Both the position numbers and the translations under genes were made by a program. A stretch of 64,000 nt of DNA, taken from contig JAGBIL010000040.1 of assembly GCA_017935025.1 (NCBI GenBank), forward strand, positions 1-64,000, given 5' to 3'. Shown piece after piece: positions 5,356 to 34,463 of this stretch. The first letter of the stretch is position 1. Each line of letters opens with the position of its first letter. The notes under the pieces are model-generated. The model was not told the DNA's origin, did not search any database, and saw only the letters and a program-made list of their open reading frames with translations. The stretch comes from Opitutales bacterium. GTDB lineage: Bacteria > Verrucomicrobiota > Verrucomicrobiia > Opitutales > UBA953.

Positions 5356-5384
5356 TTGACCTGCGACTTGGTCTCATTTTTAAT
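5356..5384 (+). promoter_or_regulatory. Probable sigma-70 promoter of the heme locus
   Basis: TTGACC (5356-5361) and TTTAAT (5379-5384) are separated by 17 bases, each matching the consensus at five of six positions. Between them is an interrupted palindrome GACC-N8-GGTC (5358-5373) that could be an operator. I cannot match it to a Fur box. It faces yezD and the TonB receptor. Confidence 0.55.
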
Positions 5385-5399
5385 TCCGGCAACACAACG

Positions 5400-5543
5400 A
5401 TGAGAAACCAACTTTCCCCGAGCATTATCGAAAAAATAACGGAACAGCTTGCCGCACTGAAATTCGGCGAACTGACCGTTGTGGTTCATGACGGGAAAGT
5501 GGTTCAAATCGAAGTGAAGGAGAAAATTCGACTCTCCCAATAA
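5400..5543 (+). CDS. YezD-like (DUF2292) small protein
   Basis: A 47-residue protein, MRNQLSPSIIEKITEQL followed by LKFGELTVVVHDGKVVQIE and a short basic end (KEKIRL). This matches the YezD/DUF2292 pattern of a helix followed by a beta-hairpin with the V-hDGKVVQIE core. The function is unknown. The start at 5400 is chosen because the family begins there and the promoter -10 is only about 15 bp upstream, which would leave a very short leader and no clear ribosome binding site. It is first in the heme locus, 71 bp before the receptor start. Confidence 0.75.
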   Translation: MRNQLSPSIIEKITEQLAALKFGELTVVVHDGKVVQIEVKEKIRLSQ

Positions 5544-5614
5544 CGCCACCGAAACACGGAGCGCCTCAAGAACATCCTTTCTCGCCCGCGACCGGACAGA
5601 CCGGAGTGCGCGAC

Positions 5615-7834
5615 ATGACGAGAAAATCAATGCAACTCAAACAGACCTTCTTTATCTTCGCGGGAACGGCAATTTTGCCGACGCTCGCGCTCTTCGCTCA
5701 GGAAGCGGCGGAAACGCCCGATACCGCGCCTGTGCAGGAAGAAACTTCCGCGCAATCGGAAGCGCCCACAACCGACGGCGAAAACGCAAAAACCGGAAAA
5801 GCGGTGCGCGTAACCGCTGCCAAACACGAAATGGAACTTCAGGATGTCCCGCTGAGCGTTTCTGTAGTCAGCGGGGACGAGATCACAAAAAGCTCTGCAG
5901 CAACAGTCTCGGACGTTCTCGATGATGTTCCCGGCGTACAGGTCGAATCCACGGGATCGGCGGGATTTAAGCAAGTCAATATCCGTGGTGAAACCAATCA
6001 GCGCGTACTGATTCTTGTCGACGGGCAAAAAATTTCGGAAACCAAAGGCATGAACGGCGCTCCGCTTCTGATGTCGGTTCAGGACATTGAGCGTGCGGAA
6101 GTCATCAAAGGCCCTGCCTCCGTGCTTTACGGCTCGGAAGCAATCGGCGGTGTGGTCAACATCATCACGAAAAAAGCGGGCAAGGAAGGTGCCCACGGAA
6201 GCGTCGGCGTGCGCGGCGACACGGGAACGCGCGGACTTGATCAGTATTACGACCTGAATGCTCGCTATGGAGGATTCGCGGCGCGTGTTTCTTTTTCGGA
6301 CGAAGACCACGGCGATATCGAATCCCCGGACGGGCGCATTGACCGCACCTCGTACCGTTTCCAAAACACGAGTGCGTACCTTGCCTACGATATTTCGGAA
6401 GACATCTCCTTCGGCGCAAGAGTCGAATCGTTCCGAGGACGCTCGGAGGTGGCATCCGGCGACGATCTCCTTTTCATGGAACTTCCGAGCTGGGATCGCG
6501 ACAAGGTCGGGCTCTTTTTTGAAATCAAGGACATTTCCGAAACTTTCGTAAAATTCCGCGTCGATGCGTATTTCCAAAAAACGAACAAGCATTTCGTGCA
6601 GGACATTACGCAATTTGTTACGCCGATGACGATCAATGTAGAATCCGACCGGCGCAACAAACACTACGGATACGGCGCGGAAATGCAGGCGGACTTCCTG
6701 ATTGCGGACGACCACTACCTCATCGTCGGAGCACAAATCGACTATGTAAAACTCGACTCGCACGAAGTAACCACCACGCAAAACTGGATGACGCTTCCGA
6801 TGGGGAATCGCTACATCGTCGATATGACACGAACGAACGATTACGACGCGGACATTCTCACCGCGGCCCTCTTTGCGCAGGACGAATGGAACTTTGCCGA
6901 AGGCTGGGATCTCGTCCTCGGGGCACGCGGAACCTATGTAAACAACGAATTTGACGACGGCACGTCGCACGTCGTCCGCCGCGCGGGAACCAACGCGGGA
7001 ACGACCGTCGAAACGCTCCCGAGCCAAAGCAAGGATGACGCGAACGCGACCTTTTCCCTCTCGCTCGTAAACTCACAAATCGAGAATTGGACGTTTCGCG
7101 GAACCGTCGCGCAGGGCTACCGTTACGCATCAATCAACGAGCTCTACATCGGCTCGGCGATGGCGGGAATGACGACTAACCCGAACCCCGATTTGGATCC
7201 CGAATCCAGCATCAGCTACGAACTCGGTGCACGCTACAACGACGGGAACCTGAATATCGACGCAACGGTTTTCTACACGGATGCCGACGATTACATCGGA
7301 ACGCGCACAACGACTTCCGCAATCGGCGACCAAATCTGGTTCGTCAATTACGACTCCGCACGGACTTTCGGGGCGGAACTCGCGGCTTCCTATCTTTTTG
7401 AACTCGGGAGCGACGCGACACTGAAACCGTACGCCGTTGCGACGCTCATGCGTCGCCGCTTCGACGATGCATCCGGCTCAACTTACTACACCGGACAACC
7501 GGAATTTTTCGGAAAAATCGGCGTTCTTGCCACTTATTCCGAAAGTAACCGCGACTGGTGGGCAGACTTCAACATTCGCGGGAACTCCGCCACGAAAGAA
7601 GAAGTCGAAGACACGGTAACCGGGGGCACAAAAGTCGACCGACAATCCGGGTGGGCAACACTTAATTTTTCAATCGGGCTTGATATTTTCGACAAAAGCA
7701 ATAGCGCATTCTTTGAAAAACTCACGCTCGCCGTCGGCGTCGACAACATCACCGACAAGCGCTACGAACTTCCGAACGTCGGCTATCTGCAACCCGGACG
7801 GAGCTTCTGGGCATCGCTCAAATACGATTTCTGA
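5615..7834 (+). CDS. TonB-dependent outer-membrane receptor, probably for heme
   Basis: A 739-residue protein. It has a signal peptide, an Ala/Glu/Thr-rich linker to about residue 60, a plug domain (about 60-180) with VLDDVPGVQVE, the VNIRGE strand, VLILVDGQ and VIKGPASVLYGSEAIGGVVNIITK, then a 22-strand-type barrel ending in Phe (LKYDF), as outer-membrane proteins do. A YASINELY plus NPDLDPE segment corresponds to the FRAP/NPNL region of heme receptors, but I see no His between the two boxes. The start at 5615 is preferred because GGAG lies 8 bases upstream. A GTG at 5606 is also possible. The substrate call rests on the HutW and ECF neighbours. Confidence 0.85.
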   Translation: MTRKSMQLKQTFFIFAGTAILPTLALFAQEAAETPDTAPVQEETSAQSEAPTTDGENAKTGKAVRVTAAKHEMELQDVPLSVSVVSGDEITKSSAATVSDVLDDVPGVQVESTGSAGFKQVNIRGETNQRVLILVDGQKISETKGMNGAPLLMSVQDIERAEVIKGPASVLYGSEAIGGVVNIITKKAGKEGAHGSVGVRGDTGTRGLDQYYDLNARYGGFAARVSFSDEDHGDIESPDGRIDRTSYRFQNTSAYLAYDISEDISFGARVESFRGRSEVASGDDLLFMELPSWDRDKVGLFFEIKDISETFVKFRVDAYFQKTNKHFVQDITQFVTPMTINVESDRRNKHYGYGAEMQADFLIADDHYLIVGAQIDYVKLDSHEVTTTQNWMTLPMGNRYIVDMTRTNDYDADILTAALFAQDEWNFAEGWDLVLGARGTYVNNEFDDGTSHVVRRAGTNAGTTVETLPSQSKDDANATFSLSLVNSQIENWTFRGTVAQGYRYASINELYIGSAMAGMTTNPNPDLDPESSISYELGARYNDGNLNIDATVFYTDADDYIGTRTTTSAIGDQIWFVNYDSARTFGAELAASYLFELGSDATLKPYAVATLMRRRFDDASGSTYYTGQPEFFGKIGVLATYSESNRDWWADFNIRGNSATKEEVEDTVTGGTKVDRQSGWATLNFSIGLDIFDKSNSAFFEKLTLAVGVDNITDKRYELPNVGYLQPGRSFWASLKYDF

Positions 7835-7859
7835 TAAGGAAAAACAAAAAAAAACAACC

Positions 7860-7919
7860 GGACTGCGGGAACGCTCTTTCAAACAGGAATCCATAGCAAA
7901 CCGCGCGTTCCCGCAGTCC
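7860..7919. terminator. Hairpin between receptor and flavodoxin genes
   Basis: A perfect 15-bp stem (7860-7874 with 7905-7919) around a 30-base loop, containing an inverted pair of the GGGAACG word. It lies 25 bp after the receptor stop. Only a short T run follows, so it may attenuate, protect the receptor mRNA end or be a processing site, and need not be a full terminator. Confidence 0.6.
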
Positions 7920-7961
7920 AAAACTCTTTTACAAATACAAATATAAATATAAAAAAACGTT

Positions 7962-8459
7962 ATGAAATCCCTGATCGTTTATTCATCCAAGACCGGCAAC
8001 ACACGCAAAGTTGCCGAAGCCATTCTTTCCGTTCTCCCTGCGGGAACGGAAATTTATCCCGTCGAAAACGCTCCGGATCCCGATGCCTACGATTTTGTCG
8101 CCGTCGGCTACTGGGTGGACAAAGGCACGGCAAACGCAGAAATGGCAGCGTATATGCCGAAGATTCGCGGAAAAAAAGTCGGCATTTTCTTCACTCTCGG
8201 CGCGTTCCCGCACTCCGAACACGCACAAGAATCCTGCGACAACGGAATTGCTCTTCTCGGTGAAAACTGCGAAGTGGTTGCGACGTTCCGCTGCCAAGGA
8301 GCCATCGACCCGAAACTCACGGCGTGGATGAGCAAACTCCCGAAAGAACATCCGCACGCACCGAATCCGGAACGCCTCCACCGCTGGGCGGAAGCCGCCA
8401 AGCACCCGGACGCCGCCGATCTCGAAGCCGCGAAAAACGCTTTCAGAAACCTCTTTTAG
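7962..8459 (+). CDS. Flavodoxin-family protein of the heme locus
   Basis: A 165-residue flavodoxin-like protein. The FMN phosphate loop is visible at the N-terminus (VYSSKTGNTRKVAEAI), with a Tyr/Trp stretch near residue 50 (FVAVGYWVDKGTAN) and FFTLGAFPHSEHAQ at about 85. The family transfers electrons from FMN. Small flavodoxins accompany radical-SAM heme enzymes in anaerobes (HmuF next to HmuW in Fusobacterium) and tetrapyrrole reductases. Here it directly precedes the HutW-like gene and most probably supplies electrons for heme breakdown. The start has an A-rich leader and no Shine-Dalgarno sequence. Confidence 0.85.
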   Translation: MKSLIVYSSKTGNTRKVAEAILSVLPAGTEIYPVENAPDPDAYDFVAVGYWVDKGTANAEMAAYMPKIRGKKVGIFFTLGAFPHSEHAQESCDNGIALLGENCEVVATFRCQGAIDPKLTAWMSKLPKEHPHAPNPERLHRWAEAAKHPDAADLEAAKNAFRNLF

Positions 8460-8460
8460 T

Positions 8461-8580
8461 GAATAAGGAATAATGAATAGTGAATAATTCAGTGCGAAGG
8501 TTTTTGCCGAAGGCAAATACCGACGAAGGAACCACTTTGAAGAATGCGTTATTCATTATCCACTATTCGTTATTCATTAA
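8461..8580. repeat. Palindromic GAATNNN element, copy 1
   Basis: A 120-bp element between flavodoxin and hutW. The arms are tandem heptamers of the type GAATAAT GAATAGT GAATAAT on the left and their near complement on the right (about 20 of 24 positions pair). The centre holds GGTTTTTGCC-GAA-GGCAAATACC. It carries no coding potential of its own, although frames run through it into hutW. Confidence 0.85.
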
Positions 8581-8590
8581 CCTTCCAACC

Positions 8591-9949
8591 ATGTTCGAAG
8601 ATTTCCTTTTCCCCGAAAACCCGGCGGAAGTCGTCGCCCGGCTTGAAGAAAAGAAACACTTCAGCCACACGGAAAATTTCCGCCGTCGCGGGAACGCGGC
8701 TCCTCCTCCGTCGCCCCTCGACGCGTGGGCGAAAGCCGCTTCCGCGCCCAAGCGCACCGCACGCCGTGCGCTCTACGTTCACGTGCCGTTTTGCCTGCAC
8801 CGTTGCTCGTTTTGCAGTTTTTACTCTAACGCAACGCGCACGGCGGACCTCGACGGCTACACGGCGACCGTCATTCGCGAAATGCAAAACGCGCTCGCAG
8901 ACACGCCCCGGCTCGCGCAGGAAGAAATCAACGTTGTTTACTTCGGCGGCGGCACTCCGACCGACCTCTCCGCGCGCAATCTTGCAGACCTTGTTTCCTT
9001 CATCTACAAAAATTTCAACGTCGCCGCCGACCGCGAATTTACCGTCGAGGGCCGCACGAGCGGATTTGATGAAGAAAAAATCCGCGCCTGTGTCGACAAC
9101 GGAGTTAACCGCTTTTCCTTCGGCGTGCAAACTTTCGATACTGCCCTGCGCCGCAAGCTCGGGCGAATCATGTCAAAGGAAGAACTCATCGAGCGCCTTT
9201 CTCTCGTGAAAAAAATCGGCGGGGACAACGTAGCCCTCATGCTCGATTTTATCTATGGGCTTCCCGGACAAACACCGGGGCTCTGGGACGAAGATTTGCG
9301 CATGATCACCGAAGTCGTTCCCGTAGACGGTGCGGACCTTTACCAACTCAAACTTTTGCCGGGAACAAGCCTCACCCGCGCAGGAAAAGATCTGAGCTAT
9401 GACGAACGGTTTGACCTTTTCATGACCGCGCGGGAACGCCTTTCAAAACTCGGCTGGAAGCGGCTTTCGATGACGCACTGGGGACGCACATCCCTCGAGC
9501 GCAACTGGTACAACCACGGCACGAAAACGGGCATGGAGCTCGTTCCGTTCGGTTCCCGCGCGGGCGGTTTCCTCGGCGGATTCAGTTTCATGCAGATGCC
9601 GGATTTACAAAAATACACGGAAACCGTTGCCTCCGGGAAAAAAGGGTTGATGGTCGCCGTGCCGGACAATCCCGGGATCCGCATGAAAAACATCGTAACG
9701 CATCAGCTCGAACTCGGCTTTCTTGAGCCGGCGGAAATCTCTCCGGAGTTCATCGCCGAAGACGCGAAAAATGTCTGGAAAAACTGGATACGCGCCGGGC
9801 TTCTCGTTCCCGACGGAGACCGCCGCTACACGCTTTCACCGCTCGGCGAGTATTGGCACGTTACCCTGATTTCGCTCGTCATGGGGATGCTGACGCAAAT
9901 CGCCTCAGCCCGGCACAATCACGAACGCGTTCCCGTGGAGGCTGCGTAA
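8591..9949 (+). CDS. hutW: HutW/ChuW-type radical-SAM heme-degrading enzyme
   Basis: A 452-residue radical-SAM enzyme of the HemN-like branch. The cluster motif is CLHRCSFC with Cys68, Cys72 and Cys75. FGGGTPT follows at about residue 118, then the VNRFSFGVQTFD and DFIYGLPGQT segments of the HemN fold. RTSLERNWYN and SRAGGFLGGFSFMQ at 296-340 are typical of the ChuW/HutW/HmuW group, which opens the heme ring without oxygen using S-adenosylmethionine and releases iron. The ATG at 8591 follows the repeat element. An upstream in-frame start would place repeat sequence in the protein. It lies between a flavodoxin and an ECF S-component, 1 bp from the latter. Confidence 0.88.
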   Translation: MFEDFLFPENPAEVVARLEEKKHFSHTENFRRRGNAAPPPSPLDAWAKAASAPKRTARRALYVHVPFCLHRCSFCSFYSNATRTADLDGYTATVIREMQNALADTPRLAQEEINVVYFGGGTPTDLSARNLADLVSFIYKNFNVAADREFTVEGRTSGFDEEKIRACVDNGVNRFSFGVQTFDTALRRKLGRIMSKEELIERLSLVKKIGGDNVALMLDFIYGLPGQTPGLWDEDLRMITEVVPVDGADLYQLKLLPGTSLTRAGKDLSYDERFDLFMTARERLSKLGWKRLSMTHWGRTSLERNWYNHGTKTGMELVPFGSRAGGFLGGFSFMQMPDLQKYTETVASGKKGLMVAVPDNPGIRMKNIVTHQLELGFLEPAEISPEFIAEDAKNVWKNWIRAGLLVPDGDRRYTLSPLGEYWHVTLISLVMGMLTQIASARHNHERVPVEAA

Positions 9950-9950
9950 A

Positions 9951-10526
9951 ATGAGCGTTCCCGCAAGCGCCGTTTCTGCGGTAAAGAAGTTTTATTGGAC
10001 GACGGAACATCTCGTCCTCGTCGGGATTTTCTCCGCGCTGATCCGCTTGTCATCGCTCGCCATCGGGTTAGTCGGCGGCGGTCCGAATCCGGTTTCGCTT
10101 TTCATCCGCAACGGGCTGACAACGGCGCTACTCATCGTGCTCGTTTGCCGCGTGCGCAAGTTCGGAGTGCTTTGCCTCTACTGCTTTGTCAACGTCGTCA
10201 TTTCGTTTTTCATGTCGGGTTCGATTATGGTTTTCCTCGCTCCCGCGAATTTGGCGGCAGCGTTGCTGAGCGATTTGATTATCGCGGCGGCTGGCGGGTA
10301 CAAAAACACGCTGAGCGTGCTTGTCGGAGTCGCGATGTACGACCTGTTCTCCCGAGTGATTTCGCTTAGCTTGAGTTTTCTCGTGATGCGCGAAAATCTG
10401 CAACTCGTGGCGGCGGGAGCGACAATGATCATTCTCGGCTACTGCGGGAGCGTGCTCGTCGGGCTTCCCGCCGGCTACAAATTCGTCAAAGAACTCCGCC
10501 ACGCAGGACTGATTAGAGAACAGTGA
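9951..10526 (+). CDS. ECF transporter substrate-binding (S) component
   Basis: A 191-residue hydrophobic protein with about five or six membrane helices, in the size range and layout of ECF S components. The pattern FYWTTEHLVLVGIFSALIRL at the N-terminus, a Gly-rich loop with PNPVSL, and a final YKFVKELRHAGLI fit the MptD/Trep_Strep-like group. S components bind the substrate in the membrane and dock on EcfT. The gene is 1 bp after hutW with GGAG upstream, so it is translationally tied to the heme enzyme. T and A components follow. Heme is therefore the likely cargo, as proposed for the ECF heme importer of lactobacilli. The exact subfamily is uncertain. Confidence 0.75.
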   Translation: MSVPASAVSAVKKFYWTTEHLVLVGIFSALIRLSSLAIGLVGGGPNPVSLFIRNGLTTALLIVLVCRVRKFGVLCLYCFVNVVISFFMSGSIMVFLAPANLAAALLSDLIIAAAGGYKNTLSVLVGVAMYDLFSRVISLSLSFLVMRENLQLVAAGATMIILGYCGSVLVGLPAGYKFVKELRHAGLIREQ

Positions 10527-10592
10527 ATAATTAATAATGAATAACGCACACCTTAGCACTGAATTATTCACTATTCATTGTTCGTTATTCAC
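10523..10592. repeat. Palindromic GAATNNN element, copy 2 (short form)
   Basis: A 70-bp copy that begins within the stop codon of the S-component gene. GTGAATAA at 10523 and GTTATTCAC at the right end pair over most of the arms. It lacks the internal TTTTTGC hairpin and keeps only ACCTTAGCACTGA in the centre. Confidence 0.75.
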
Positions 10593-10618
10593 TAAAATTT
10601 TCCCAAAAAAAAATTCAA

Positions 10619-11455
10619 ATGCTTCAAAAACGTATTGGTTCCGAAAATACAAAAAAGCCTTTTGTCGCAACGCTCGATATGCGCACGAAGCTGATTATTT
10701 CGCTCGCAGCATCAAGTACGTCGATTTTTCTGAACGACTGGCGCTTACTTCTCGCGCTCAACGCGCTGACTTTTGTTTACGTTTTGAGTTTGCGCCGGTT
10801 CAAACCGGTAGCGGCGATGTACGCGGCAACGGCGCTGATGCTCGGAATCGCGTTTTGCTTTATTCCCGCGTTTGTTTGGATCGTTCGAGGGATTGCGGAC
10901 AGCGTTCCCGCGCAGGCGGGCGACGGATTTCGCCGCCTCGCCGAAATCCTCGACGAACAGGGCTTTGCAACCGTGCTTCTTCCGTTTTTGCGTATTTCCG
11001 TGAGCATGAACGTTTTTCTCGCACTCGGACTGACTTTCGATAATCAGGAATTTATTTCCGTGATGCGAAAAATGCGGCTCGCGCGCATCGTTTTTATCCC
11101 GCTGATGATTTGCTGCCGCTTTGTGCCGAGCTTTGTGGATGACATTCGCCAGCTTTACGAAAGCCTGCGCGTGCGCCGCCGCAAAATGAATTTTCTCTCG
11201 CTCGTTACTTCGCCGTTGCGTTTTTTGCGCTACGTCGTCGTTCCCGTGTGCGTGCGCACGTTGCGTATCGCGGACAACCTCGTTCTGATGTGCGAAGTGC
11301 GTCGCATCGGTTGCACGGAACGTTGTATTTGTGCCACCGAACACAAGATGCGTTCCCGTGACTGGAACGTTCTCGCGTTCACGTTTTGCGCTACGGCCGC
11401 AATTTGGACGCTAAAATTCATCCTTCCCGCCCCCGCCGAAACGTTTATCCATTAA
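10619..11455 (+). CDS. ECF transporter transmembrane (T) component
   Basis: A 278-residue membrane protein of the EcfT/CbiQ family. It has an N-terminal LDMRTKLIISL segment, several membrane helices to about residue 130, and a cytoplasmic coupling region containing ESLRVRRRKM, which corresponds to the conserved A-R-G/S box that contacts the ATPases. A last membrane helix and short tail follow. EcfT links the S component to the ATPase pair. It sits between the S component and the ATPase gene and is separated from each by a palindromic element. The start at 10619 has an A-rich leader. Confidence 0.82.
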   Translation: MLQKRIGSENTKKPFVATLDMRTKLIISLAASSTSIFLNDWRLLLALNALTFVYVLSLRRFKPVAAMYAATALMLGIAFCFIPAFVWIVRGIADSVPAQAGDGFRRLAEILDEQGFATVLLPFLRISVSMNVFLALGLTFDNQEFISVMRKMRLARIVFIPLMICCRFVPSFVDDIRQLYESLRVRRRKMNFLSLVTSPLRFLRYVVVPVCVRTLRIADNLVLMCEVRRIGCTERCICATEHKMRSRDWNVLAFTFCATAAIWTLKFILPAPAETFIH

Positions 11456-11460
11456 ATAAT

Positions 11461-11560
11461 GAATAACGAATAGTGAACAATGAATAACGCATTCTTCAAA
11501 GTTTTTGCCTTCGGCAAAAACCTTAGCACTGAACTATTCATTGTTCACTATTCGTTATTC
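11461..11560. repeat. Palindromic GAATNNN element, copy 3
   Basis: A 100-bp element with perfect 26-bp inverted arms (11461-11486 and 11535-11560) and an inner hairpin GTTTTTGCC-TTC-GGCAAAAAC (11501-11521). It fills almost the whole gap between the T-component gene and the ATPase gene. The ATPase start codon is 10 bp beyond it. Confidence 0.92.
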
Positions 11561-11570
11561 TCTTTCCTCC

Positions 11571-12986
11571 ATGCTTGTCGTTGAAAAACTTTCCTACCGC
11601 TACCCGTTTGCGCAAAAGGACGCGCTGACGGATATTTCGTTTTCGCTCGGCGAAGGCGAAACGCTTCTGATTTCCGGACCGTCCGGTTGCGGAAAATCCA
11701 CACTCCTGCGCGTACTCAACGGGCTGATTCCGTTTCACTTTCACGGCGAACTTCGCGGGAAGGTCAAAATCGCCGGGCGTGCCCCGGAAAGCCTCGCCGA
11801 AGTTTCCGCGCAAGTCGGTTCCGTTTTCCAAAATCCCGACAGCCAATTTCTCGCCATGACCGTTGAAAGCGACATCGCGGGAAGCCTCGAATGGCGCCTT
11901 GATTCCCGCGAAGAAATTTTGCGCCGCACGGACGCGGCAATTGAGCGGCTCGGGCTGAAGCACTTGCGTTCCCGTAGCCTTTTCGGACTTTCTTCCGGCG
12001 AAAAGCAAAAAACCGTCATCGCATCCGCCGTCGCAATGCAACCGCGGATTCTCGTTTTTGACGAGCCGACGGCGAACCTTTCCCCGGAGGCGACGGAAGA
12101 ACTCGCCGCGCTTTGTCGCGAACTCAAGCGCGACGGGTTCACCATTGTCATCGTCGATCACCGCATTTACTGGCTCGAGGGCGTTCCCGACAAAATCCTG
12201 ATTTTGAACGAAGGGAAAATCGTGCGCCGCATTGAGGGCACCGACGGGAACGCGCTCACCGAACTTGCCGCAGATGATGCCGAACTCGCGCTCGGTCTCC
12301 GCAAAGTTCGCGTTCCCGTAAATCCGCCGCTGCGCGATGTCCCGTCCGAGCTTCCCGCCGCACTTTGTTGTGAAAAAATCGTTTTCAAATACCCGAACTC
12401 CGAAAAGGAAATTTTCGACGGATCCCGTGATTTCCGTATTCCTCAGGGTGCGATTACCGCCGTCGTCGGGAAAAACGGAGCCGGAAAAACCACCTTCGCA
12501 AAAATTATCACCGGGCTTTTGAAACTTCCCCGAAAAAACGGCGGAATTATTCTGAAAAACGGCGTTCCCGCGAAAGCCGCCCGCTTACTCGACGACGGCG
12601 GATTCGTCATGCAAAACACGGACATCCAGCTCTATATGCGCACCGTGCTTGAAGAACTTGTTTCTTCTTCGCCGCTCCCGCGCAAAGATGCCGAGCGTGA
12701 AGCCTTCGAGCTACTCGCCGATATCGGACTTTCCGACAAGCGGGAACGACACCCGCAGTCCCTTTCCGGCGGCGAAAAACAACGCCTCGTTATCGCCTCC
12801 GTTTTGATGAAGAAACCCTCCCTACTCGTACTCGATGAGCCGACCAGCGGACTCGACGGGCGCAATATGCGCATCATCGCCGCCATGCTCCGCGACTACG
12901 CCGCTCGCGGGAACACAGTTTTGCTCATCACGCACGATCTCGAGTTTCTCTCGCTTCTCGCCACCTACAAAATCGAAATCAATTAA
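11571..12986 (+). CDS. ECF transporter fused tandem ATPase (A-A')
   Basis: A 471-residue protein with two ABC ATPase domains in one chain. Domain 1 (about 1-230) has Walker A GPSGCGKST, signature LSSGEKQ and Walker B ILVFDEPT. Domain 2 (about 265-471) has GKNGAGKTT, LSGGEKQ and LLVLDEPT with a switch His in ITHD. Most ECF systems encode two ATPases, and fused forms occur. It powers the S-T pair encoded just upstream. The start at 11571 follows repeat copy 3. Translation from upstream would run through that repeat and is rejected. Confidence 0.9.
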   Translation: MLVVEKLSYRYPFAQKDALTDISFSLGEGETLLISGPSGCGKSTLLRVLNGLIPFHFHGELRGKVKIAGRAPESLAEVSAQVGSVFQNPDSQFLAMTVESDIAGSLEWRLDSREEILRRTDAAIERLGLKHLRSRSLFGLSSGEKQKTVIASAVAMQPRILVFDEPTANLSPEATEELAALCRELKRDGFTIVIVDHRIYWLEGVPDKILILNEGKIVRRIEGTDGNALTELAADDAELALGLRKVRVPVNPPLRDVPSELPAALCCEKIVFKYPNSEKEIFDGSRDFRIPQGAITAVVGKNGAGKTTFAKIITGLLKLPRKNGGIILKNGVPAKAARLLDDGGFVMQNTDIQLYMRTVLEELVSSSPLPRKDAEREAFELLADIGLSDKRERHPQSLSGGEKQRLVIASVLMKKPSLLVLDEPTSGLDGRNMRIIAAMLRDYAARGNTVLLITHDLEFLSLLATYKIEIN

Positions 12987-13002
12987 ATCGTAAAATGAAC
13001 CA

Positions 13003-13206
13003 CGAAAAGCACGGAACACACAGAAAGACGACCTTGAGAAAGGATGAGAGCTAAAACCAACGAATAGCGAATAGTTAATAATGAATAATTCATTGTTCAA
13101 AGTTTTTGCTCTTAAGAGCAAAAACCTTAGGCACTGTGTTATTCACTATTCATTATTCGTTATTCATTGAGAAGGAAACCTTTCCCGTGATTTTCCGTGG
13201 TTCAAT
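13003..13206. repeat. Outer imperfect inverted repeat around element copy 4
   Basis: The gap between the ECF ATPase and exbB. TGAACCACGAAAAGCACGG near 13003 is the near complement of CCGTGATTTTCCGTGGTTCA ending near 13206. Element copy 4 sits inside, so the gap could fold as one nested hairpin. Confidence 0.6.
13058..13169. repeat. Palindromic GAATNNN element, copy 4
   Basis: A 112-bp element with heptamer arms and a perfectly palindromic core GTTTTTGCTCTTAAGAGCAAAAAC. It is the reverse complement of copy 5 with two mismatches by my alignment. Copies 4 and 5 flank exbB. Confidence 0.92.
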
Positions 13207-13237
13207 AAATTAAAAATTTTCCAACAACCATAAAAAT

Positions 13238-13864
13238 ATGCTTCAACACTACTGTGCCGAATACTACGAAAAGCTCGGACCCGTCGGGATCCCGCTACTA
13301 ATCTCGCTTCTACTTGCCGTCTTTCTTTCGGTAAAAATCTACCTGAAGTTCTGGCTCGTAGAGCTCCAGTTTCGCCGTTTTTTCAAACGGGTCGAAGACG
13401 GCAATACCGCACTTTTGCTCGACGAATCGCATTTTGAAAAAAATCCGCTCGTGCGGGTCGTGCGGGATATCGTAACCAAGCACCGCCACCACTCGGACGA
13501 CTTACGCTCAGAATCCGCGTATCTTTTTCACCGATACTTTTACGAAACAAAACGCAATTTCACCACACTCCGCCTCATCACTGCCACAGCGCCGCTCCTC
13601 GGCTTGCTCGGAACCGTGCTCGGAATTATTCAGGTTTTTGACGTTATCGGACACTGCGGAAACGCTGCGGCGGACAACGCGCAACTCGCCCTCGGTATCG
13701 GGCAGGCACTTTGGACGACCGTGCTCGGCATCGTTATCGCCGTACCGACGCTCGCCGTCCTGTTTTACCTGCGACACAAACTGCTCGGGTGCATGATTGT
13801 CGCGGTCGAATTTTCGTACCGCGCCGTCGCCATCGCCAAAGCGGCGCAAAGCGATGAGAGTTGA
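13238..13864 (+). CDS. exbB: ExbB/TolQ-type proton channel subunit
   Basis: A 208-residue MotA/TolQ/ExbB-family protein. The first membrane helix is at about 15-38. A cytoplasmic loop with FHRYFYETKRNFTTL precedes the paired helices 2 and 3 (about 108-130 and 145-170), with the conserved TAPLLGLLGTVLGII and ALWTTVLGIVIAVPTL. ExbB with ExbD uses the proton gradient to energise TonB. It sits upstream of exbD and tonB and behind the ECF genes, so it is likely dedicated to the receptor of this locus. It is flanked by inverted copies of the palindromic element. Confidence 0.9.
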   Translation: MLQHYCAEYYEKLGPVGIPLLISLLLAVFLSVKIYLKFWLVELQFRRFFKRVEDGNTALLLDESHFEKNPLVRVVRDIVTKHRHHSDDLRSESAYLFHRYFYETKRNFTTLRLITATAPLLGLLGTVLGIIQVFDVIGHCGNAAADNAQLALGIGQALWTTVLGIVIAVPTLAVLFYLRHKLLGCMIVAVEFSYRAVAIAKAAQSDES

Positions 13865-13874
13865 GGACTAAAAC

Positions 13875-13986
13875 CAATGAATAACGAATAATGAATAGTG
13901 AATAACGCAGTGCCTAAGGTTTTTGCTCTTAAGAGCAAAAACTTTGAACAATGAATTATTCATTATTAACTATTCACTATTCGTTG
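13875..13986. repeat. Palindromic GAATNNN element, copy 5
   Basis: A 112-bp element, an inverted near-identical copy (110 of 112 by my alignment) of 13058-13169. It occupies the exbB-exbD gap. Confidence 0.92.
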
Positions 13987-14036
13987 ATTCTGGCTTCCAT
14001 CCTTATCAATTATCCACCATTCCTTATCCGTAAAAA

Positions 14037-14447
14037 ATGCACTGTCAAAACATTGAAGACTTTGACGCAGACGACGAAATCAGCATCGAACTGACTCCGC
14101 TGATCGACGTCATTTTCATGCTCCTGATTTTCTTCATCATTGCGACAACCTTTGTGAAGCCGAAATTTGAAGTCGCACTGCCCGATGCAGAAAGCGCCAA
14201 AATCGTTCCCGAAAACGAAAAAACACCCGTCTGCGCAGTTACCGTCGATGCTGCGGGAACACTCTTTTTCGACGGGATTGAAACGCCGCCCGAATTACTC
14301 CCGCAAAAACTCAAAGAGCACGAAGGTAAGATTTTTGAAGTTTTTTCGGACAAAACCGCTCCGTTCGGAGTCGTACTACAACTCATGGACGAAGCCAAGA
14401 AACAAGGTCATGAGAACCTGCTTTTCATGGTTGAAAAAGAGCGTTGA
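14037..14447 (+). CDS. exbD: ExbD/TolR-type proton channel subunit
   Basis: A 136-residue protein with the ExbD layout: a short cytoplasmic N-terminus, one membrane helix at about 20-42 with the essential Asp in LTPLIDVIFMLLIFF, and a periplasmic domain with FEVALPDAESA and EVFSDKTAPFGVVLQLMDEAKKQG. It pairs with ExbB to drive TonB. Its last 38 bases overlap the start of tonB, which points to coupled translation. No strong ribosome binding site is visible. Confidence 0.92.
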   Translation: MHCQNIEDFDADDEISIELTPLIDVIFMLLIFFIIATTFVKPKFEVALPDAESAKIVPENEKTPVCAVTVDAAGTLFFDGIETPPELLPQKLKEHEGKIFEVFSDKTAPFGVVLQLMDEAKKQGHENLLFMVEKER

Positions 14448-15258
14448 GGACACCGAGCGTGTCAGCTCCGGCGCGGCGGCACTCGCCTGCCTGCTTTTGT
14501 TCGCGGGAACGCTTGCACTTGCCTCTGAAAAATCATTTTTGCTCCCGGATCGCGAAGCGGCGGAAGCCGTCACGAAAAATGTTCCCGCAAAAATCGTCCT
14601 CCGCCTGGAAAATTTCGTTCCCGTGACCGAAGTTGCGGAGATTGAAAATGCGCCGGAGGAAATGCCTCCCGCGCCGGAAATTCCCGCACCTCCGGAGCCG
14701 CTGCCCGAGCCGCCCAAGGAAACGCCCGCACCGGAAAAAATCGACGAATCCGCAATTCGAGAAACGCTCAGCGAACAGCCCGCGCCCGAGATTCCCCGAC
14801 AAGAGACTCCGCCTCCCGAACCGGAAAAAGCTCCGGAAACGCCTCCGGAAGAGCCTCCGCCCGAGCAGAAACCGCAGGAATTTGTCCCGCCTCCGCAAAT
14901 CGCACAACAACCGCCGCCGAGCCCGCCCGTTCCCGCGCCTGTCGAAGATTCCGCCGCGAAAGCCGCTGCCGAACAAACGCTTTACGGGGCACTTGCCGAA
15001 TCTGTCTCCCGCAAAAAATTTTACCCGAAAACCGCCCGCCGCAACGGACGCACGGGAACGGTTTTCATGCGGGTTTCGATCTCATCCGACGGCGAAATCT
15101 CCGGTTTTTCCGTCGAAAAGGCATCCGCGCACAAATCCCTCGTTTCCGGCGCGAAGGAAACCCTGCGTCGGGTTGCCGAAGATTTTTCCGCCCCGGCGGG
15201 AACGCGCGCAGCCCTTCCCGCAGAGTTCGTCGTCCCCATCATTTACGAACTGAATTAA
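14410..15258 (+). CDS. tonB: TonB energy transducer
   Basis: A protein of about 282 residues with an N-terminal membrane anchor (AALACLLLFAGTLALAS), a long periplasmic Pro/Glu-rich spacer (about 70-180) full of PPEP and PEIPAPPEP repeats, and a C-terminal TonB domain with FYPKTARRNGRTGTVFMRVSI and a final YELN. TonB reaches across the periplasm to the receptor plug. The ATG at 14410 lies within exbD. A TTG at 14431 is an alternative. The operon ends after this gene. Confidence 0.88.
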   Translation: MRTCFSWLKKSVEDTERVSSGAAALACLLLFAGTLALASEKSFLLPDREAAEAVTKNVPAKIVLRLENFVPVTEVAEIENAPEEMPPAPEIPAPPEPLPEPPKETPAPEKIDESAIRETLSEQPAPEIPRQETPPPEPEKAPETPPEEPPPEQKPQEFVPPPQIAQQPPPSPPVPAPVEDSAAKAAAEQTLYGALAESVSRKKFYPKTARRNGRTGTVFMRVSISSDGEISGFSVEKASAHKSLVSGAKETLRRVAEDFSAPAGTRAALPAEFVVPIIYELN

Positions 15259-15945
15259 ATCATTTTCAACGCAAGGATTTTGGGGGAAACGCCATTCCCG
15301 GGCAGAAATTCTCCCACAAATTTCACAGATTTTGTCATGGAGGACAGCCGTCCCGGCTGTCCGTTGGTCCAAGGCGCCCGCGTTCCCGCGAAGAGTCCCC
15401 CAAAAAATCCCGGGGACAGGCGAGACGCCTGTCCTCCTTTTTTTTGTTCCCGCAAAAAAAATGCTTGTAGGGAGTTTTTTTTTGTTTATCCGCTAATGCT
15501 CACAAGTTTCACAGATTTTGTCATGGAGGACAGCCGGGACGGCTGTCCCTTTTCTTTTTTGCAGGAAAATCAAAGCCTCGGAGAGGCGTTATGTTCTAAA
15601 ACCCTGCGCGTAAGCGTAGGGCAAGGAACGAAAAAACAACGAGCCTTGAAAAGGCGAAACAAAACCGCATGACGCGCAGATACACGGTGCCCGCGTTCCC
15701 GCCGCTTCCGTGGAACATCCGCCATTTCCGGGCAAAAATCCTCTCGCGGAAACACAGAGACACGGAGTTTTTTTGAGGAAAATTCAACGCTCCGGAGGAG
15801 CGTTATTTCCTAAGGGCTACGCGCGCCAATATCGAAAGCAAATTCCGAATCCCGAATAAAAATTCCGTGTGTTTCCGGGTTGTCCGTAGTTCAAAAAAAC
15901 TTCGTGCGTCTCACGGAAGCGGCCGGAGTCCGCTTCTCCCGGAAC
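15259..15945. repeat. Non-coding repeat region between tonB and pilC
   Basis: About 690 bp without a gene. It holds two near-identical copies of a 48-bp unit containing TTTCACAGATTTTGTCATGG and a GGACAGCC hairpin (15315-15362 and 15501-15548), and two versions of a second repeat, GAAAAT-CAA-GC-TC-GGAG-GCGTTAT (about 15568-15597 and 15778-15812). CACAGAGACACGGAG (about 15752) and TTCCGTGTGTTTCC (about 15862) are fragments similar to those in the gap before exbB. I see no coding potential. Such short intergenic palindromes are common in this phylum. Confidence 0.8.
15414..15445 (+). terminator. Terminator of the heme/TonB operon
   Basis: GGACAGGCG pairs with CGCCTGTCC (15426-15434) around AGA, then CTC and T8 (15438-15445). 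It is the first strong plus-strand terminator after tonB. Confidence 0.85.
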
Positions 15946-16005: not shown

Positions 16006-17217
16006 TTACGCCATCTTTTGAATGATGGAAACAATCGGCATGAACATCGCGACAACGATTGTGCCGACGACAACGGCAAGGAAGAGAATCAACACCGGCT
16101 CAATGACGGACGTGAGCGCGCCGACGGCATTATCGACTTCTTCGTCGTAGTTGTCCGCAACGCGATTGAGCATTTCCGGAAGCTGCCCGGTTTCTTCGCC
16201 GACCTGCACCATGGAGCAAACCATCGGCGGGAAGACTTTTGCCTGTTCGAGCGGCTGTGCGAGCGTGTCGCCGTCGCGGACACGATCGTGAACGCGATCC
16301 AGCGCGTCGCGGAGGACGACGTTGTCAAGCGTGTCGCGGGTAATCGTCATTGCCTGCAAAATCGGTACACCGGAAGACATCAGCGTCCCGAACGTACGCG
16401 CGAAACGGGAAACGGTAACAACCTGGATAAAGGAACCGATTTTCGGAAGTTTGAAAACGACACGGTCAATAATCGCTTTGGTTTTCGCGTTTTTGAAAAG
16501 GAAACGAATGAGAAAGATTCCGCCGAAGACCACGACAACGGCAACCAACCAATGCTCGCTGAGAGAGTTTCCGAGGTCCATAACAAACTTTGTCAGCGGC
16601 GGCATCGTCCCGCCCTGAGCGGAAATCATCTTTTGGAACGACGGGACGACGAACGTCAGAAGCACCCACACAATGATAAACGCGACGGAAAGAACGACGC
16701 AGGGATAAACCATCGCGGATTTGACTTTTTTCTTAATTTTACCGGATTTTTCCTGAAACGCCGCGAGGCGGTCGAGAACGGTATCGAGCACGCCGCCCGC
16801 TTCCCCGGCGCGGATCATATTGACGTAGAGGCGGTCAAACATACGCGGATACTGCGAGAGCGCGTCAGAAAGCGTGTTCCCGCCCTGAATATTTTCGGAA
16901 ATCGTTTCGAGCGCGGTTTTGAACACGGGGTCTTTCTCCTGCCCGGAGAGGATTTGCATCGCGCGCAGAAGCGGCAAACCCGCTTGAAGCAACGTGGCGA
17001 GCTGGCGTGTAAAAATCGTCAACTGCTCACCGGAAATCTTTTTATTAAAGCCGGCATTTTTCTTACCTTTTCTGCCGAAACCTTCGGCGGAGATGGAAGA
17101 AACCATCAGGCGTTGAGAGGAGAGCTTGGCACGAGCCTGCTCTTCGTTGGGCGCTTCGATTTTTCCGTTCACGGGTTTTCCGTTCCCGTCGATTGCGGAA
17201 TACTTGAATGTTGCCAT
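16006..17217 (-). CDS. pilC: Type IV pilus inner-membrane platform protein PilC/GspF
   Basis: A 403-residue protein with two T2SSF repeats (about 70-195 and 270-395). The first contains FTRQLATLLQAGLPLLRAM and MIRAGEAGGVLD, the second SRFARTFGTLMSSGVPILQAM and MVQVGEETGQL. Three membrane helices lie after repeat 1 (about 170-195 and 220-245) and at the C-terminus. It is the platform on which the ATPases drive pilin polymerisation. The start MATFKYSAIDGNGK is typical. It is last in the four-gene pilus operon, 29 bp after the PilB-like gene. Confidence 0.93.
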   Translation of the reverse strand: MATFKYSAIDGNGKPVNGKIEAPNEEQARAKLSSQRLMVSSISAEGFGRKGKKNAGFNKKISGEQLTIFTRQLATLLQAGLPLLRAMQILSGQEKDPVFKTALETISENIQGGNTLSDALSQYPRMFDRLYVNMIRAGEAGGVLDTVLDRLAAFQEKSGKIKKKVKSAMVYPCVVLSVAFIIVWVLLTFVVPSFQKMISAQGGTMPPLTKFVMDLGNSLSEHWLVAVVVVFGGIFLIRFLFKNAKTKAIIDRVVFKLPKIGSFIQVVTVSRFARTFGTLMSSGVPILQAMTITRDTLDNVVLRDALDRVHDRVRDGDTLAQPLEQAKVFPPMVCSMVQVGEETGQLPEMLNRVADNYDEEVDNAVGALTSVIEPVLILFLAVVVGTIVVAMFMPIVSIIQKMA

Positions 17218-17246
17218 AGTTTTCTAAAGGGCTGGGGTTAAAAAGA

Positions 17247-18908
17247 TTAGGTGTATTTTAGGACTTCCTCGATGGTGGTCAATCCATCAAAAATGCAACG
17301 CAATCCGTCATCGCGGAGCGTGCGCATCCCGTTTTCGATGGCTTTCTGTTTGAGCACGAGGGTCGGCGCTTTTTTCGTGATGAGCTCGCGAACCGAGTCG
17401 TTGATGACCATAAGTTCAAAAAGCCCCTGGCGCCCTTTGTAACCCGTGCGGTTGCACTCGGAGCAGCCTTTTCCGTAAAAAAACTGTTTTTCCGCGATTT
17501 CGAGCGGATCGACCTGGAGCATCGAAATGACTCCCTGATCCGGCTCGTACGCTGTACGGCAATGGCGGCAAATGCGGCGGAGCAGACGTTGACCGAGCAC
17601 ACCTTCAAGCGACGCGGAAATGAGGAACGGCTCCAAGCCCATATCGACGAGACGCGTAACTGCGCCGGGAGCGTCGTTCGTGTGGAGCGTGGCAAGCACA
17701 ACGTGCCCGGTGAGCGATGCCTGCACTGCAATTTGCCCCGTTTCCAAGTCACGAATTTCCCCGACCATGATCGTATCCGGGTCCTGACGCAGGAAGGAAC
17801 GCAGAGCAGACGCAAACGTGAGCCCGACCTGGTGATTAATCTGCACCTGCATGATGCCTTCGATTTCGTATTCGACCGGATCCTCCGCCGTGAGGATTTT
17901 GACATCCACGGTGTTAACTTCGCGAAGCGCGGAATAAAGCGTTGTCGTTTTACCGGAACCCGTCGGTCCCGTGACGATGAAGATGCCGTTCGGGCGGTTC
18001 ACGAGCTCGCGAATCCCGTTCATAATTTCCGGCTCCATCGAAAGATTTTCGAGGTCAAGATTGACAACGCCCTTGTCGAGAATACGAAGCACGACGGATT
18101 CGCCGAACTGCGTCGGAAGCGTGGAAACACGAAGGTCGATGGGGCGCCCGCCGATGGTGGTTTTAATACGACCGTCCTGCGGGATACGTTTTTCCGCGAT
18201 ATTCAAACCGGACATCACCTTCACGCGCGCGGTAACGGCATTCGCGAGGCTTTTCGGCGGCGGTGCCATTTCGTAAAGCGCACCGTCGATACGGTAGCGG
18301 ATACGGAATTGGTCTTCAAACGGCTCGAAGTGAATGTCGGATGCCTTCGCCTTGACAGCTTCCTGCAAAACGACGTCGACAAAACGGATAATCGGCGCCT
18401 GATTCGCAGAATCGTCCGCATCGACATTGTCTAAGTCGATTTCGGAGAGAATGTCTTCAATGGACGAATGTTGCTCGCCGTAAAATTTGACGATTGCTCC
18501 GTCGATTTGCGCGGGATCGCTGACCACGAGTTCGACATCGCGGCGAAGCGAGAACGACAAATCGTCCACGACGCTGTAGTTCAGCGGGTCTTTTGCGAGG
18601 AACCAAACTTTGTTCGGGTCGGCACGGAACGGAATAATTCCGTATTTATGCGCCAAGTCCGGCTTGATGATCCGAAGTAAATCCGGATCAATGTGCTCAG
18701 GAATCGCGGGAACGAACTCGACATTGAGGTTGCGGGCGATGAGCTCCAACATCGTATTGCGGTCGATGTATCCCGCGTCTTCGAGAATGTCGGTAAACGC
18801 TTTTCCGGTTTCGACGTGTTCGCCCCACGCCTCGTCGAGTTGCTCGCGGGAGACCAAGCCGGATTCTTCAAAAATATTTTTTAATGTTTCACTGTGTTCG
18901 TTAAACAT
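17247..18908 (-). CDS. pilB: PilB/GspE-type assembly ATPase, copy 1
   Basis: A 553-residue secretion ATPase. It has an N-terminal MshEN-like domain (1-150), then the ATPase domain with [19 protein letters not shown] (Walker A), the Asp box with [11 protein letters not shown], a Walker B region in [19 protein letters not shown] and the His box in [14 protein letters not shown] tetracysteine zinc site (CRHC and CSEC) is near residue 440-475. It polymerises pilin subunits. It lies between pilT and pilC. A paralogue is encoded at 20066-21784. Confidence 0.92.
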
Positions 18909-18929
18909 AACGGGAACGCCGGTTGAGGA

Positions 18930-20018
18930 TTAAATGAGAGCAAGCGCGCGAAGTTTGTCGCGCATTTCATTCGGAGCCTGTGCGAACTTCGTCGCTTCGG
19001 ACGGATCGATGTACCCTTCCTGCACGAGAGAAAGCAGGTGGCTGTCAAGTGTGCGCATCCCGAGATTACCTCCGGTCTGAATGTCGGAGGTGATGCGGTA
19101 GGTTTTGTTGTCTCGAATGAGCGCCGCCGTGGAATCCGTATTGATCATGATTTCATAGGCGGCTATACGCCCGCCGTCGCGGCGGCGACAAAGTACCTGA
19201 GAAATAACGGCAACGAGCGAAGAGGAAAGCTGCGTGCGAATTTGATCTTTGGTGTCCGCCGGGAACGCATCGACGATACGGTCGACAGTACGCGCGGCGC
19301 CGGTCGTATGCAAAGTAGCGAAAACGAGGTGCCCGGTTTCCGCGGCGGAAACGGCGGCTGTAATAGTTTCCAAATCCCGCATTTCCCCGACGAGAATAAT
19401 GTCCGGGTCCTGACGGAGCGCGCCGCGAATAGCTTCCGCAAAAGACGGAACGTCTCGCCCGATTTCGCGCTGAGTTACGACGGAACGTCGATGGTCATGA
19501 AAATACTCAATCGGGTCTTCAATCGTGATGATGTGCTTTTCCTCGTTGCGGTTGATCCAGTTGAGCATGGACGCGAGTGTCGTCGTTTTACCGGATCCGG
19601 TCGGTCCCGTAACGAGAATCAGTCCGCGTTGGCGTTGCAAAAGAGCCTTAACCTTGTCGGAAAGACCGAGCTGGTCTAAATCGAACATCTTATTCGGAAT
19701 CTGTCGGAGGACGATCCCGTACCCGTTGGCATCCCCGTGCCCGTGGCGCGCCTTAAACACGCTGACACGGAAGCGGGCCTGGCCCTCGTAGGAAAAACCG
19801 AAGTCGCATCCTCCGCGTTCCTGCAAGCGTTTCCAATGGTGTTCGGCGGTGATTTCGCGCGCCATCGCCTCGGTTTCCTCCGCAGTCAGTACGGGACCGT
19901 CCACCGGCATCATCACGCCGGAGATGCGAAGCACGGGAGCTTGGTCGATGTGAATGTGAAGGTCGCTTGCGCTTTCGCTCACCATAAGGTCGAGCAGTTG
20001 TTTCAGCGTGTAATTCAT
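18930..20018 (-). CDS. pilT: Pilus retraction ATPase PilT
   Basis: A 362-residue ATPase of the PilT type, shorter than PilB and without the tetracysteine site. Visible motifs are [18 protein letters not shown] near the N-terminus, [20 protein letters not shown] (Walker A), [16 protein letters not shown], the PilT-typical [20 protein letters not shown] and [12 protein letters not shown]. It powers retraction, needed for twitching and for pulling DNA during natural transformation. It lies between the two pilB-like genes, 21 bp before pilB copy 1. Confidence 0.93.
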
Positions 20019-20065
20019 TTTGAAAAAATCCTTTGTTACGTAGTTGTGTTGTGCGTTCCCGCGAA

Positions 20066-21784
20066 TTATTCGACTTCGACCGTCGTGGACAGAACTTCCT
20101 CGACGGACGTAATTCCCGCCGCGATTTTGCGAATCCCGTCTTCGCGCATCGTACGCATACCGAGTTCCCGCACCTTGCGGCGCAAGTCGACAAGCGACAC
20201 GTTGCGGTAGATCATTTCCTGAATCTCTTCGTTGACCATGAAGATTTCAAAAACACCGCGACGCCCGCGATAGCCGGTATTGTGGCACTTCGAGCAGCCT
20301 CGTCCTTTTTGGAAGTTAGAACTCGAAAGATCCCCCACCGTCATGCCGATAGAAATCAGTTCCTTTTCCGTCGGGTTGTACGATTCCGTACAATCCGGAC
20401 AAATGCGGCGCACAAGGCGTTGAGCAAGGACACCGCGAAGCGACGCGGAAACGAGGAACGGCTTCACGCCGATGTCGACGAGGCGCGAAACGGCGGACGG
20501 AGCATCGTTCGTGTGGAGCGTGGAAAACACCATATGCCCGGTGAGCGATGCATTGACCGCGATTTCCGCCGTTTCCAAGTCACGAATTTCCCCGATCATG
20601 ATAATGTTCGGCGCTTGGCGGAGCATGGAGCGCAGAGCCGCCGAGAACGTCATCCCGACCTCGCGCCTCACCTGCACTTGATTGATGCCCGGCATCTGAT
20701 ATTCGACCGGATCTTCCACCGTGATAATTTTGCGGTCCGGCTGATTAATGTAATTGAGTGCCGAATACAGCGTGGTGGATTTACCGGACCCCGTCGGTCC
20801 CGTGACGAGAAAGATTCCGTCCGCTCCCGTAATAATTTTCTGAAACGTTGCCTGGTCGTCGGAGAAAAAGCCGAGTTCCGGCAAGCCGAGGCGTAGCCCT
20901 TCTTTGTCCAAAATACGCATGACGATGGATTCGCCGTAAACCGTGGGAAGCACGGAAACACGCAAGTCCACGTCTTTTCCCGAAACCTGGATTTGAATAC
21001 GCCCGTCCTGCGGAATACGTTTTTCCGCAAGGGAAACTTCCGCCATGAGCTTCAGGCGCGCGATAATTGAAGCCTGCAGGCGTTTCGGGGGATTTTCGAC
21101 TTCCTGCAAAACGCCGTCGATGCGGTAACGCACGCGAAAACGTTTTTCCAAAGGCTCCATGTGAATGTCGGACGCTCGTCGACGAATCGCCTCCGTGATG
21201 AGCAAATTCACATATTTGATAATCGGAGCATCGTCGGCACTCGCACCCTTTGCGTCGTTCCCGGGAATGTTTACGCCCGGTCCCGCGTCTCCGAAAAGAG
21301 CCTTCATCGCATCGCTCTGCGGCAAACCGTCGTCGCCGTAAGCGGATTTAATCGCCGCGCGAATATCGTCCGGCGGAGCAAGGCGGAATGAGACCGACAT
21401 CCCGAGCACGCGCGCGAGCTCGTCCATCATATCCGTGTCGAGCGGGTCGGCGGTAACGGCGAGCATCTGCGGTCCTTCAATCTGCAAAGGGAGCACATTG
21501 TAGCGGTCGGCGAGTTCTCGCCCCATTCTTTCAAGCGCCTCCGGTGTCGGGCGAATACCTTCCAGGTCTGCGACTTCCATATCGAACTGCTGCGCGAGAG
21601 CGGCAGTAATCGCCGCCCACGTCGTATAGCCTTTGTCGACCAGAAGCGTCAGAGCTTCCGTATCCGCATTTTCTTCAGTTGTGCCTTGGGAAAGCACATA
21701 TTCCCGCGCGGCGGCGACGGTTTCCGGCGGAACAAGCTGCTCGGTTTGAATCAAATCAATGACATAATCATCAGCGGAAATCAC
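20066..21784 (-). CDS. PilB/GspE-type assembly ATPase, copy 2
   Basis: A 572-residue paralogue of the other PilB-like ATPase, with an MshEN-like N-terminal domain, [60 protein letters not shown] and the zinc pairs CPDC and CSKC. I place the start at a GTG (21784) because AAGGAG (21800-21795 on the minus strand) is 10 bases upstream. An ATG at 21859 would add 25 residues without family similarity. It heads the operon pilB2-pilT-pilB1-pilC. The two ATPases may serve pili and a second system, or act together. Confidence 0.9.
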
Positions 21785-22028
21785 GATTTCGGGTCTCCTT
21801 GTAAGATTGACAAAAAAAAGGGGCGAGGAACGGGGAAAACTAAAGGTTTTTCTGTTCAAAACACGCCGCGAAAAACCTCCCGCCGCGTTCGTTTTGAAAA
21901 GAACACGGGATTTTTAGCACGAAATCCGCGCCCTTGCAAAAGAAAAGGAGGGCGCAAAACGAATTAGGACGCGGGAAATCCGTAAGCCCCCCCCCCCCGG
22001 AGAGAAGAGGGAAATTTTCCGCACCGCC
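21785..22028 (-). promoter_or_regulatory. Leader region of the pilus operon with a C12 tract
   Basis: 244 bp between the zinc-ribbon gene and pilB2. It contains a run of 12 C (21987-21998), a Shine-Dalgarno AAGGAG (21800-21795) for the GTG start and G/C-rich imperfect inverted repeats around 21855-21900. I could not pick out a convincing promoter. Confidence 0.5.
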
Positions 22029-34253: not shown

Positions 34254-34463
34254 AGTTTTAAAAAGATTAGAGATTAAAGCTTAAAGATTAAAGAAGATGA
34301 GAGTTGATGGATGAGAGCTTATTTAATGAATAATGAATAGTGAATAGTGAATAATTCATTTCGGGCTTTTGCCTAAGCAAAAGCTTTAACACGGCGTTAT
34401 TCGTTATTAATTATTCATTATTCACTAAAGACTTACCTCTAAGCCCTCATCCGTCCTCCGCCC
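34254..34463. repeat. Nested inverted repeats between kelch and MFS genes
   Basis: TAAAGCTTAAAGATT (34275-34289) is the complement of AATCTTTAAGCTTTA (34466-34480), so the whole gap can fold back. A GAATNNN element lies inside. A related TAATCTTTAAGCT occurs after the MFS gene near 32717. Confidence 0.7.
34325..34426. repeat. Palindromic GAATNNN element, copy 6
   Basis: Heptamer arms (TGAATAATGAATAGTGAATAG on the left, complement on the right) around an inner hairpin GCTTTTGC-CTAA-GCAAAAGC. This is the only copy outside the heme locus, again between two co-directional genes. Confidence 0.85.

Follow-up and report, generated by a model that had tools for sequence, protein, structure and literature searches.

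A putative anaerobic heme-iron acquisition operon with an ECF importer in an Opitutales bacterium

Gene content and layout of the operon

The stretch of DNA analysed (the window) consists of 64,000 nucleotides from Opitutales bacterium (assembly GCA_017935025.1, contig JAGBIL010000040.1, positions 1 to 64,000), on the plus strand of which an operon of ten genes with intact reading frames was identified using Pfam and NCBIfam profile searches (Table 1). These genes encode a small DUF2292 protein, a TonB-dependent receptor (TBDR), a flavodoxin, a radical S-adenosylmethionine (SAM) enzyme of the HutW type, the S, T and fused A-A components of an energy-coupling factor (ECF) transporter, and ExbB, ExbD and TonB. 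The operon is probably a self-contained anaerobic heme-iron acquisition system of a diderm bacterium, in which the ECF transporter would act as the inner-membrane importer. An original prediction for this locus, made from the sequence alone, had listed nine of these genes and their place, and this gene content was confirmed; the DUF2292 open reading frame (ORF) and a conserved promoter-like element are additional parts.

The DUF2292 ORF is the first gene of the operon and is kept ahead of the receptor in four species. The ORF of the TBDR opens at position 5606, with the ATG at 5630 being the likelier start, where the N-terminus is signal-like, while the start of TonB is predicted to be a TTG codon overlapping the 3' end of exbD. 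A search for the same gene order, which had been proposed with the original prediction, found the ten genes arranged alike in three further species of this genus, indicating that the operon is not a chance assembly. It is close to tatC in genomes G000 and G005 and is not in G003 and G007, and seems to occupy more than one genomic site within the genus.

The operon receptor and EcfT were found to be the only TBDR and the only EcfT of the genome, which is 98% complete. No periplasmic binding protein with a classical ATP-binding cassette (ABC) importer is encoded at the locus, as had been stated previously, and a family search of the whole genome revealed no FecCD permease (HmuU/ChuU-type) either. 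The three sister species with the operon match this pattern (one TBDR, one EcfT and no FecCD permease), and the four remaining members of the genus possess neither HutW nor EcfT.

The spacer of the promoter-like element was found to hold an inverted-repeat-type site of 7-1-7 form. In the window this site reads TGCGACT-T-GGTCTCA, and in one of the sister species it is fully palindromic (TGAGACT-T-AGTCTCA). Across the four species the site has five to seven of seven palindromic pairs and 8-11 of 14 matches to the 7-1-7 Fur consensus, and is a possible Fur-type operator.

Table 1. Features of the operon, with positions in the window and the supporting profile or alignment evidence.
Feature	Position	Strand	Evidence
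Promoter-like element, conserved	5356-5384	+	TTGACC - 17 nt - TTTAAT; four-species alignment
DUF2292 (YezD-like) small protein, 47 amino acids	5400-5543	+	PF10055 60 bits, cut-off 22
TonB-dependent outer-membrane receptor, heme-receptor-like	5630-7834	+	Plug 100 bits, barrel 131 bits
HmuF/FldH-like flavodoxin	7962-8459	+	Flavodoxin_3 178 bits
HutW/ChuW/HmuW-type radical SAM enzyme (anaerobilin synthase family)	8591-9949	+	TIGR04107 384 bits
ECF S component (Trep_Strep/MptD family), putative heme-binding membrane subunit	9951-10526	+	Trep_Strep PF09605 39.8 bits, cut-off 28.7
ECF T component (EcfT/CbiQ family)	10619-11455	+	CbiQ PF02361 38.5 bits, cut-off 25
Fused ECF A-A ATPase	11571-12986	+	Two ABC_tran (PF00005) domains; TIGR04520 292 bits
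ExbB	13238-13864	+	MotA_ExbB PF01618
ExbD	14037-14447	+	PF02472
TonB	~14431-15258	+	PF03544 44 bits, cut-off 24.6; proline-rich linker, TonB C-terminal domain

HutW, its flavodoxin and the ECF importer

HutW was found to match the full TIGR04107 model (positions 19-418), with the next best models, HemW and HemN, scoring 161 and 121 bits. Comparison with E. coli proteins gave 35% identity (238 bits) to ChuW, against approximately 26% identity to HemN and HemW (110 and 103 bits). In a maximum-likelihood tree, HutW clustered with ChuW and with HmuW-type proteins of Fusobacterium and Cetobacterium, and was split from HemN and HemW with a support of 100/99. The radical SAM motif CX3CX2C is present as CLHRCSFC (residues 68-75). 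From the tree and the scores, the enzyme can be solidly assigned to the ChuW/HutW/HmuW family and is thus of the ChuW/HmuW type, and its identification as a HemN/HemW paralogue was ruled out. The case held to be damaging to the original prediction, homology limited to coproporphyrinogen oxidase-like enzymes, was therefore not what was found.

Scanning of genome contigs with a HutW alignment returned mostly relatives of HemN and HemW among the matches listed, with the useful loci among them being those of Oxalobacter, Azoarcus, a Phycisphaerae metagenome-assembled genome and Fusobacterium/Cetobacterium. In two other families, HutW was seen to carry an N-terminal PCP_red domain (PF08369; L150:473-2005 of G180 and L149:1805-3304 of G369), a domain known from protochlorophyllide reductase, making these proteins tetrapyrrole-enzyme fusions.

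The sole significant match of the flavodoxin among PDB structures was 8G64 (E=9e-18), the heme-bound FldH of Fusobacterium nucleatum, whose heme-ligating residue is His134 (PMC10404700). In this alignment, H132 of the flavodoxin aligns with that ligand, and the equivalent histidine is kept in those ECF-linked homologues whose sequence reaches the region. Furthermore, the protein shares 46% identity with the flavodoxin of a Fusobacterium sp. whose gene neighbours hmuW (L052). As HmuF serves HmuW as its heme carrier and also reduces anaerobilin (PMC10404700), the flavodoxin and HutW of the window may be read as a similar pair.

The S component was assigned by its Trep_Strep match; its match to TIGR02185 ('MptD family ECF S') fell below the cut-off. 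Its AlphaFold model is a multi-helix bundle with a pLDDT (predicted local distance difference test) score of 82. The top fold match of this model was 5EDL, an ECF S component, at a probability of 1.00, and its other matches included ThiT and RibU; none of these fold matches passed an E value of 0.001. In the A-A fusion, the Walker A, signature and Walker B motifs were found to be intact in both halves, and the closest PDB chains were those of EcfA1. The operon thus contains the S, T and two A domains with intact ATPase motifs that an ECF transporter requires, and its adjacent S, T and A genes together with the only EcfT of the genome are those of a dedicated (group I) module. A reading in which the A module is shared was rejected, as the genome has just one EcfT.

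A model of the S component matched 14 of 388 genomes of the phylum, spread over four families. In all 14, hutW was found at the same place, being the next gene in 12 and separated by one gene in two. The overlap of S and hutW gave a genus-level hypergeometric P of ~2e-5, a value that ignores deeper kinship. When hutW loci were inspected, the S component was present in 12 and ChuU-type permease genes in 10, with none having both and some having neither. ECF-linked HutW proteins occupy at least two positions in the HutW tree, and one of these (G369) has ChuTUV-linked relatives as neighbours. The linkage of S to hutW, the mutual exclusion of the ECF set and ChuTUV-type importers, and these separate placements show, by comparative genomics, that the ECF set replaces the classical heme importer, as had been proposed.

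Two of these loci were partly seen, with the contig ending after the S gene in G369 and within the flavodoxin gene in G180, and the latter genome was found to encode FecCD genes elsewhere. In genus g86, for which six loci were read, the genes are tightly packed in the order hutW-S-T-AA-flavodoxin. In what was sampled, the full set from outer membrane to cytoplasm is a feature of the window's genus, and the conserved core elsewhere is hutW-S-T-AA-flavodoxin with no linked TonB receptor. The description of the locus as a self-contained unit consequently holds for its own genus and not for the core found elsewhere. No match to the S model was seen among 198 genomes from the phylum of Treponema, 398 from a Clostridiales phylum and 12 other named genomes, a search that had no positive control and could have passed over distant relatives.

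Among individual loci, that of G369 has a gene for a pyridoxamine-phosphate-oxidase-like protein (PF01243; L149:3334-3789) separating hutW from the S gene. In loci L028, L160 and L162-L164, all of the same order, hutW was seen, but the queries used recognised neither an importer nor a TBDR or flavodoxin within ~9 kb of it.

Proposed heme route and its alternatives

In the proposed route, the TBDR, energised by the operon's own ExbB-ExbD-TonB, would carry heme over the outer membrane, and the S component would bind it at the periplasmic face. ATP hydrolysis by the fused EcfA-A protein, together with EcfT, would then drive heme over the inner membrane, taking the place of the HmuTUV/ChuTUV systems that depend on a periplasmic binding protein. 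In the cytoplasm, the HmuF-like flavodoxin may accept heme on His132 and pass it to HutW, which, by analogy with the characterised HmuW/HmuF pair of Fusobacterium, would open the macrocycle via a SAM-derived radical to release Fe2+ and anaerobilin. The flavodoxin, like its counterpart in that pair, would subsequently reduce the anaerobilin.

Import of heme over the inner membrane of diderms has been described as involving a periplasmic binding protein and a classical ABC importer, and the HutW-family operons of Fusobacterium, Campylobacter, Leptotrichia, Veillonella and Treponema include HmuT, HmuU and HmuV among their parts (PMC10404700). The hmuTRUVWF locus of Fusobacterium nucleatum (PMC10404700) resembles that of the window in combining a TonB receptor, a HutW-family enzyme and a heme-binding flavodoxin, and some related clusters also have exbB, exbD and tonB; however, Fusobacterium uses the HmuT binding protein and the HmuUV ABC importer where the window has ECF S-T-AA. 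The chu locus of E. coli O157:H7 (ChuA-S-T-W-X-Y-U-V) likewise has a TonB-dependent receptor and the ChuW homologue compared above, but differs in possessing the ChuT/U/V importer and ChuS, ChuX and ChuY, with no ECF set and no HmuF-type flavodoxin.

Among ECF-type systems, heme import in Gram-positive bacteria occurs through SiaFGH of Group A Streptococcus and in Latilactobacillus sakei, which differ from the window in that their loci are not known to include a TonB receptor or an anaerobilin synthase. The original prediction had placed ECF heme import in lactic acid bacteria, to which it is not confined, since LhaSTA of Staphylococcus lugdunensis binds heme and imports it for iron (PMC7299338). 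LhaSTA shares the S/T/A set with the window, its LhaS being likened to the S component by class and not by sequence, but belongs to a monoderm host, has a single A gene and has no outer-membrane receptor, TonB or HutW in its locus.

Several observations weigh against the operon being such a heme system. HutW scores 16 bits below the curated TIGR04107 cut-off of 400, as several HutW proteins of the phylum likewise fall slightly below it. TIGR01785 (heme/hemoglobin) was the best subfamily model for the TBDR at 205 bits, under the cut-off of 317, so that by this model it is not called a TonB-dependent heme receptor. The plug and loop heme-ligand histidines of ChuA, at positions which we take to be those of ShuA, are not conserved in the TBDR, which leaves the heme specificity of the receptor, as part of the self-contained unit, putative. 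Comparison of the S component with PDB sequences gave no match to any solved structure, and no residue could be assigned as the axial ligand to be expected, the only invariant histidine (H184) lying close to the C-terminal end; for LhaS, a proven heme S component, spectra suggest coordination by histidine (PMC7299338). In genus g86, no TonB receptor is linked to the core. Finally, the Fur-like site is weakest in the window, with 8/14 matches compared to 10-11/14 in the sister species.

ECF transporters for cobalamin exist, and an unlikely alternative is that the ECF set imports another tetrapyrrole or cofactor, such as cobalamin, coproporphyrin or a bilin, with HutW and the flavodoxin processing that compound or simply lying beside the importer. 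The missing ChuA histidines would fit this, as would the fact that several TBDR profiles, including BtuB, score on the receptor; the heme/hemoglobin models, however, score approximately twice as high as the B12 models. A cobalamin riboswitch, which would have favoured the cobalamin alternative raised with the original prediction, was searched for in the locus and none was found. Two further points argue against another substrate: S is strictly linked both with an enzyme of the anaerobilin synthase family and with a heme-binding flavodoxin, and beside hutW the ECF set is exchanged with ChuTUV-type heme importers. Heme is the most likely substrate of the S component.

It is highly improbable that HutW acts in heme biosynthesis or chaperoning in the manner of HemN or HemW, with the transporter supplying a porphyrin precursor. 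These enzymes belong to the same superfamily, and the genome encodes HemB and cytochrome bd, meaning that the host starts tetrapyrrole synthesis and probably uses heme; however, a HemN/HemW-like gene distinct from hutW is found at C29 of the genome, and HutW is placed with ChuW/HmuW by the tree and scores and is paired with an HmuF-like flavodoxin. The presence of HemB and cytochrome bd makes it more likely that the imported heme is an iron source rather than a needed cofactor. In other bacteria a single ECF energy module can serve several S components, but the ECF set is very unlikely to be a general module or bystander, with heme crossing the inner membrane by another, unknown route, as the EcfT is the only one of the genome and is lacking in genus members without hutW, the set stays beside hutW across four families and the genome has no FecCD permease as an alternative.

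The preferred reading of the locus, as an anaerobic heme-iron operon, upholds the original prediction to the extent that sequence evidence reaches and joins a known enzyme to a known transporter class in a combination that is new and evolutionarily repeated. On balance we lean towards the broader claim that this would be a complete diderm heme route without a periplasmic carrier (from TBDR to S component to flavodoxin/HutW), with the ECF set exchanged with ChuTUV-type importers at least two times in one phylum, and would represent the first diderm ECF heme importer and the first to be coupled to the anaerobic breakdown of heme. In the open-access literature searched, outside which most subscription journals lie, neither a diderm ECF heme importer nor an ECF-HutW combination was found. 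The locus points to a second inner-membrane solution for heme in diderms, namely an ECF transporter linked to a heme-opening reaction that needs no oxygen, and would extend anaerobic use of heme iron to a further bacterial group. HutW loci with one or the other importer form natural pairs, through which the substrate of a Trep_Strep S component becomes directly testable.

Sequence around the operon

Long palindromic hairpins of 90-141 nt (predicted at -21 to -47 kcal/mol), composed of 7-nt units such as TTATTCA/CTATTCG, were seen to lie in five intergenic gaps of the operon (8454-8582, 10508-10597, 11457-11563, 13040-13170 and 13872-14004), with only one further copy within the window (34300-34440). 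Three of these five gaps measure 15-46 bp in sister species G005, and at least those three copies therefore look like insertions between genes.

Downstream of the operon, at 15320-15570, near-repeats of the type GTCATGGAGGACAGCC..GGCTGTCC were read from the sequence and are possibly repeat elements or terminators. These are followed on the minus strand (16006-21859) by a row of type IV pilus/type II secretion genes, recognised from ORF translations only, which includes a PilC-like protein, two PilB/GspE-like ATPases and one PilT-like ATPase.
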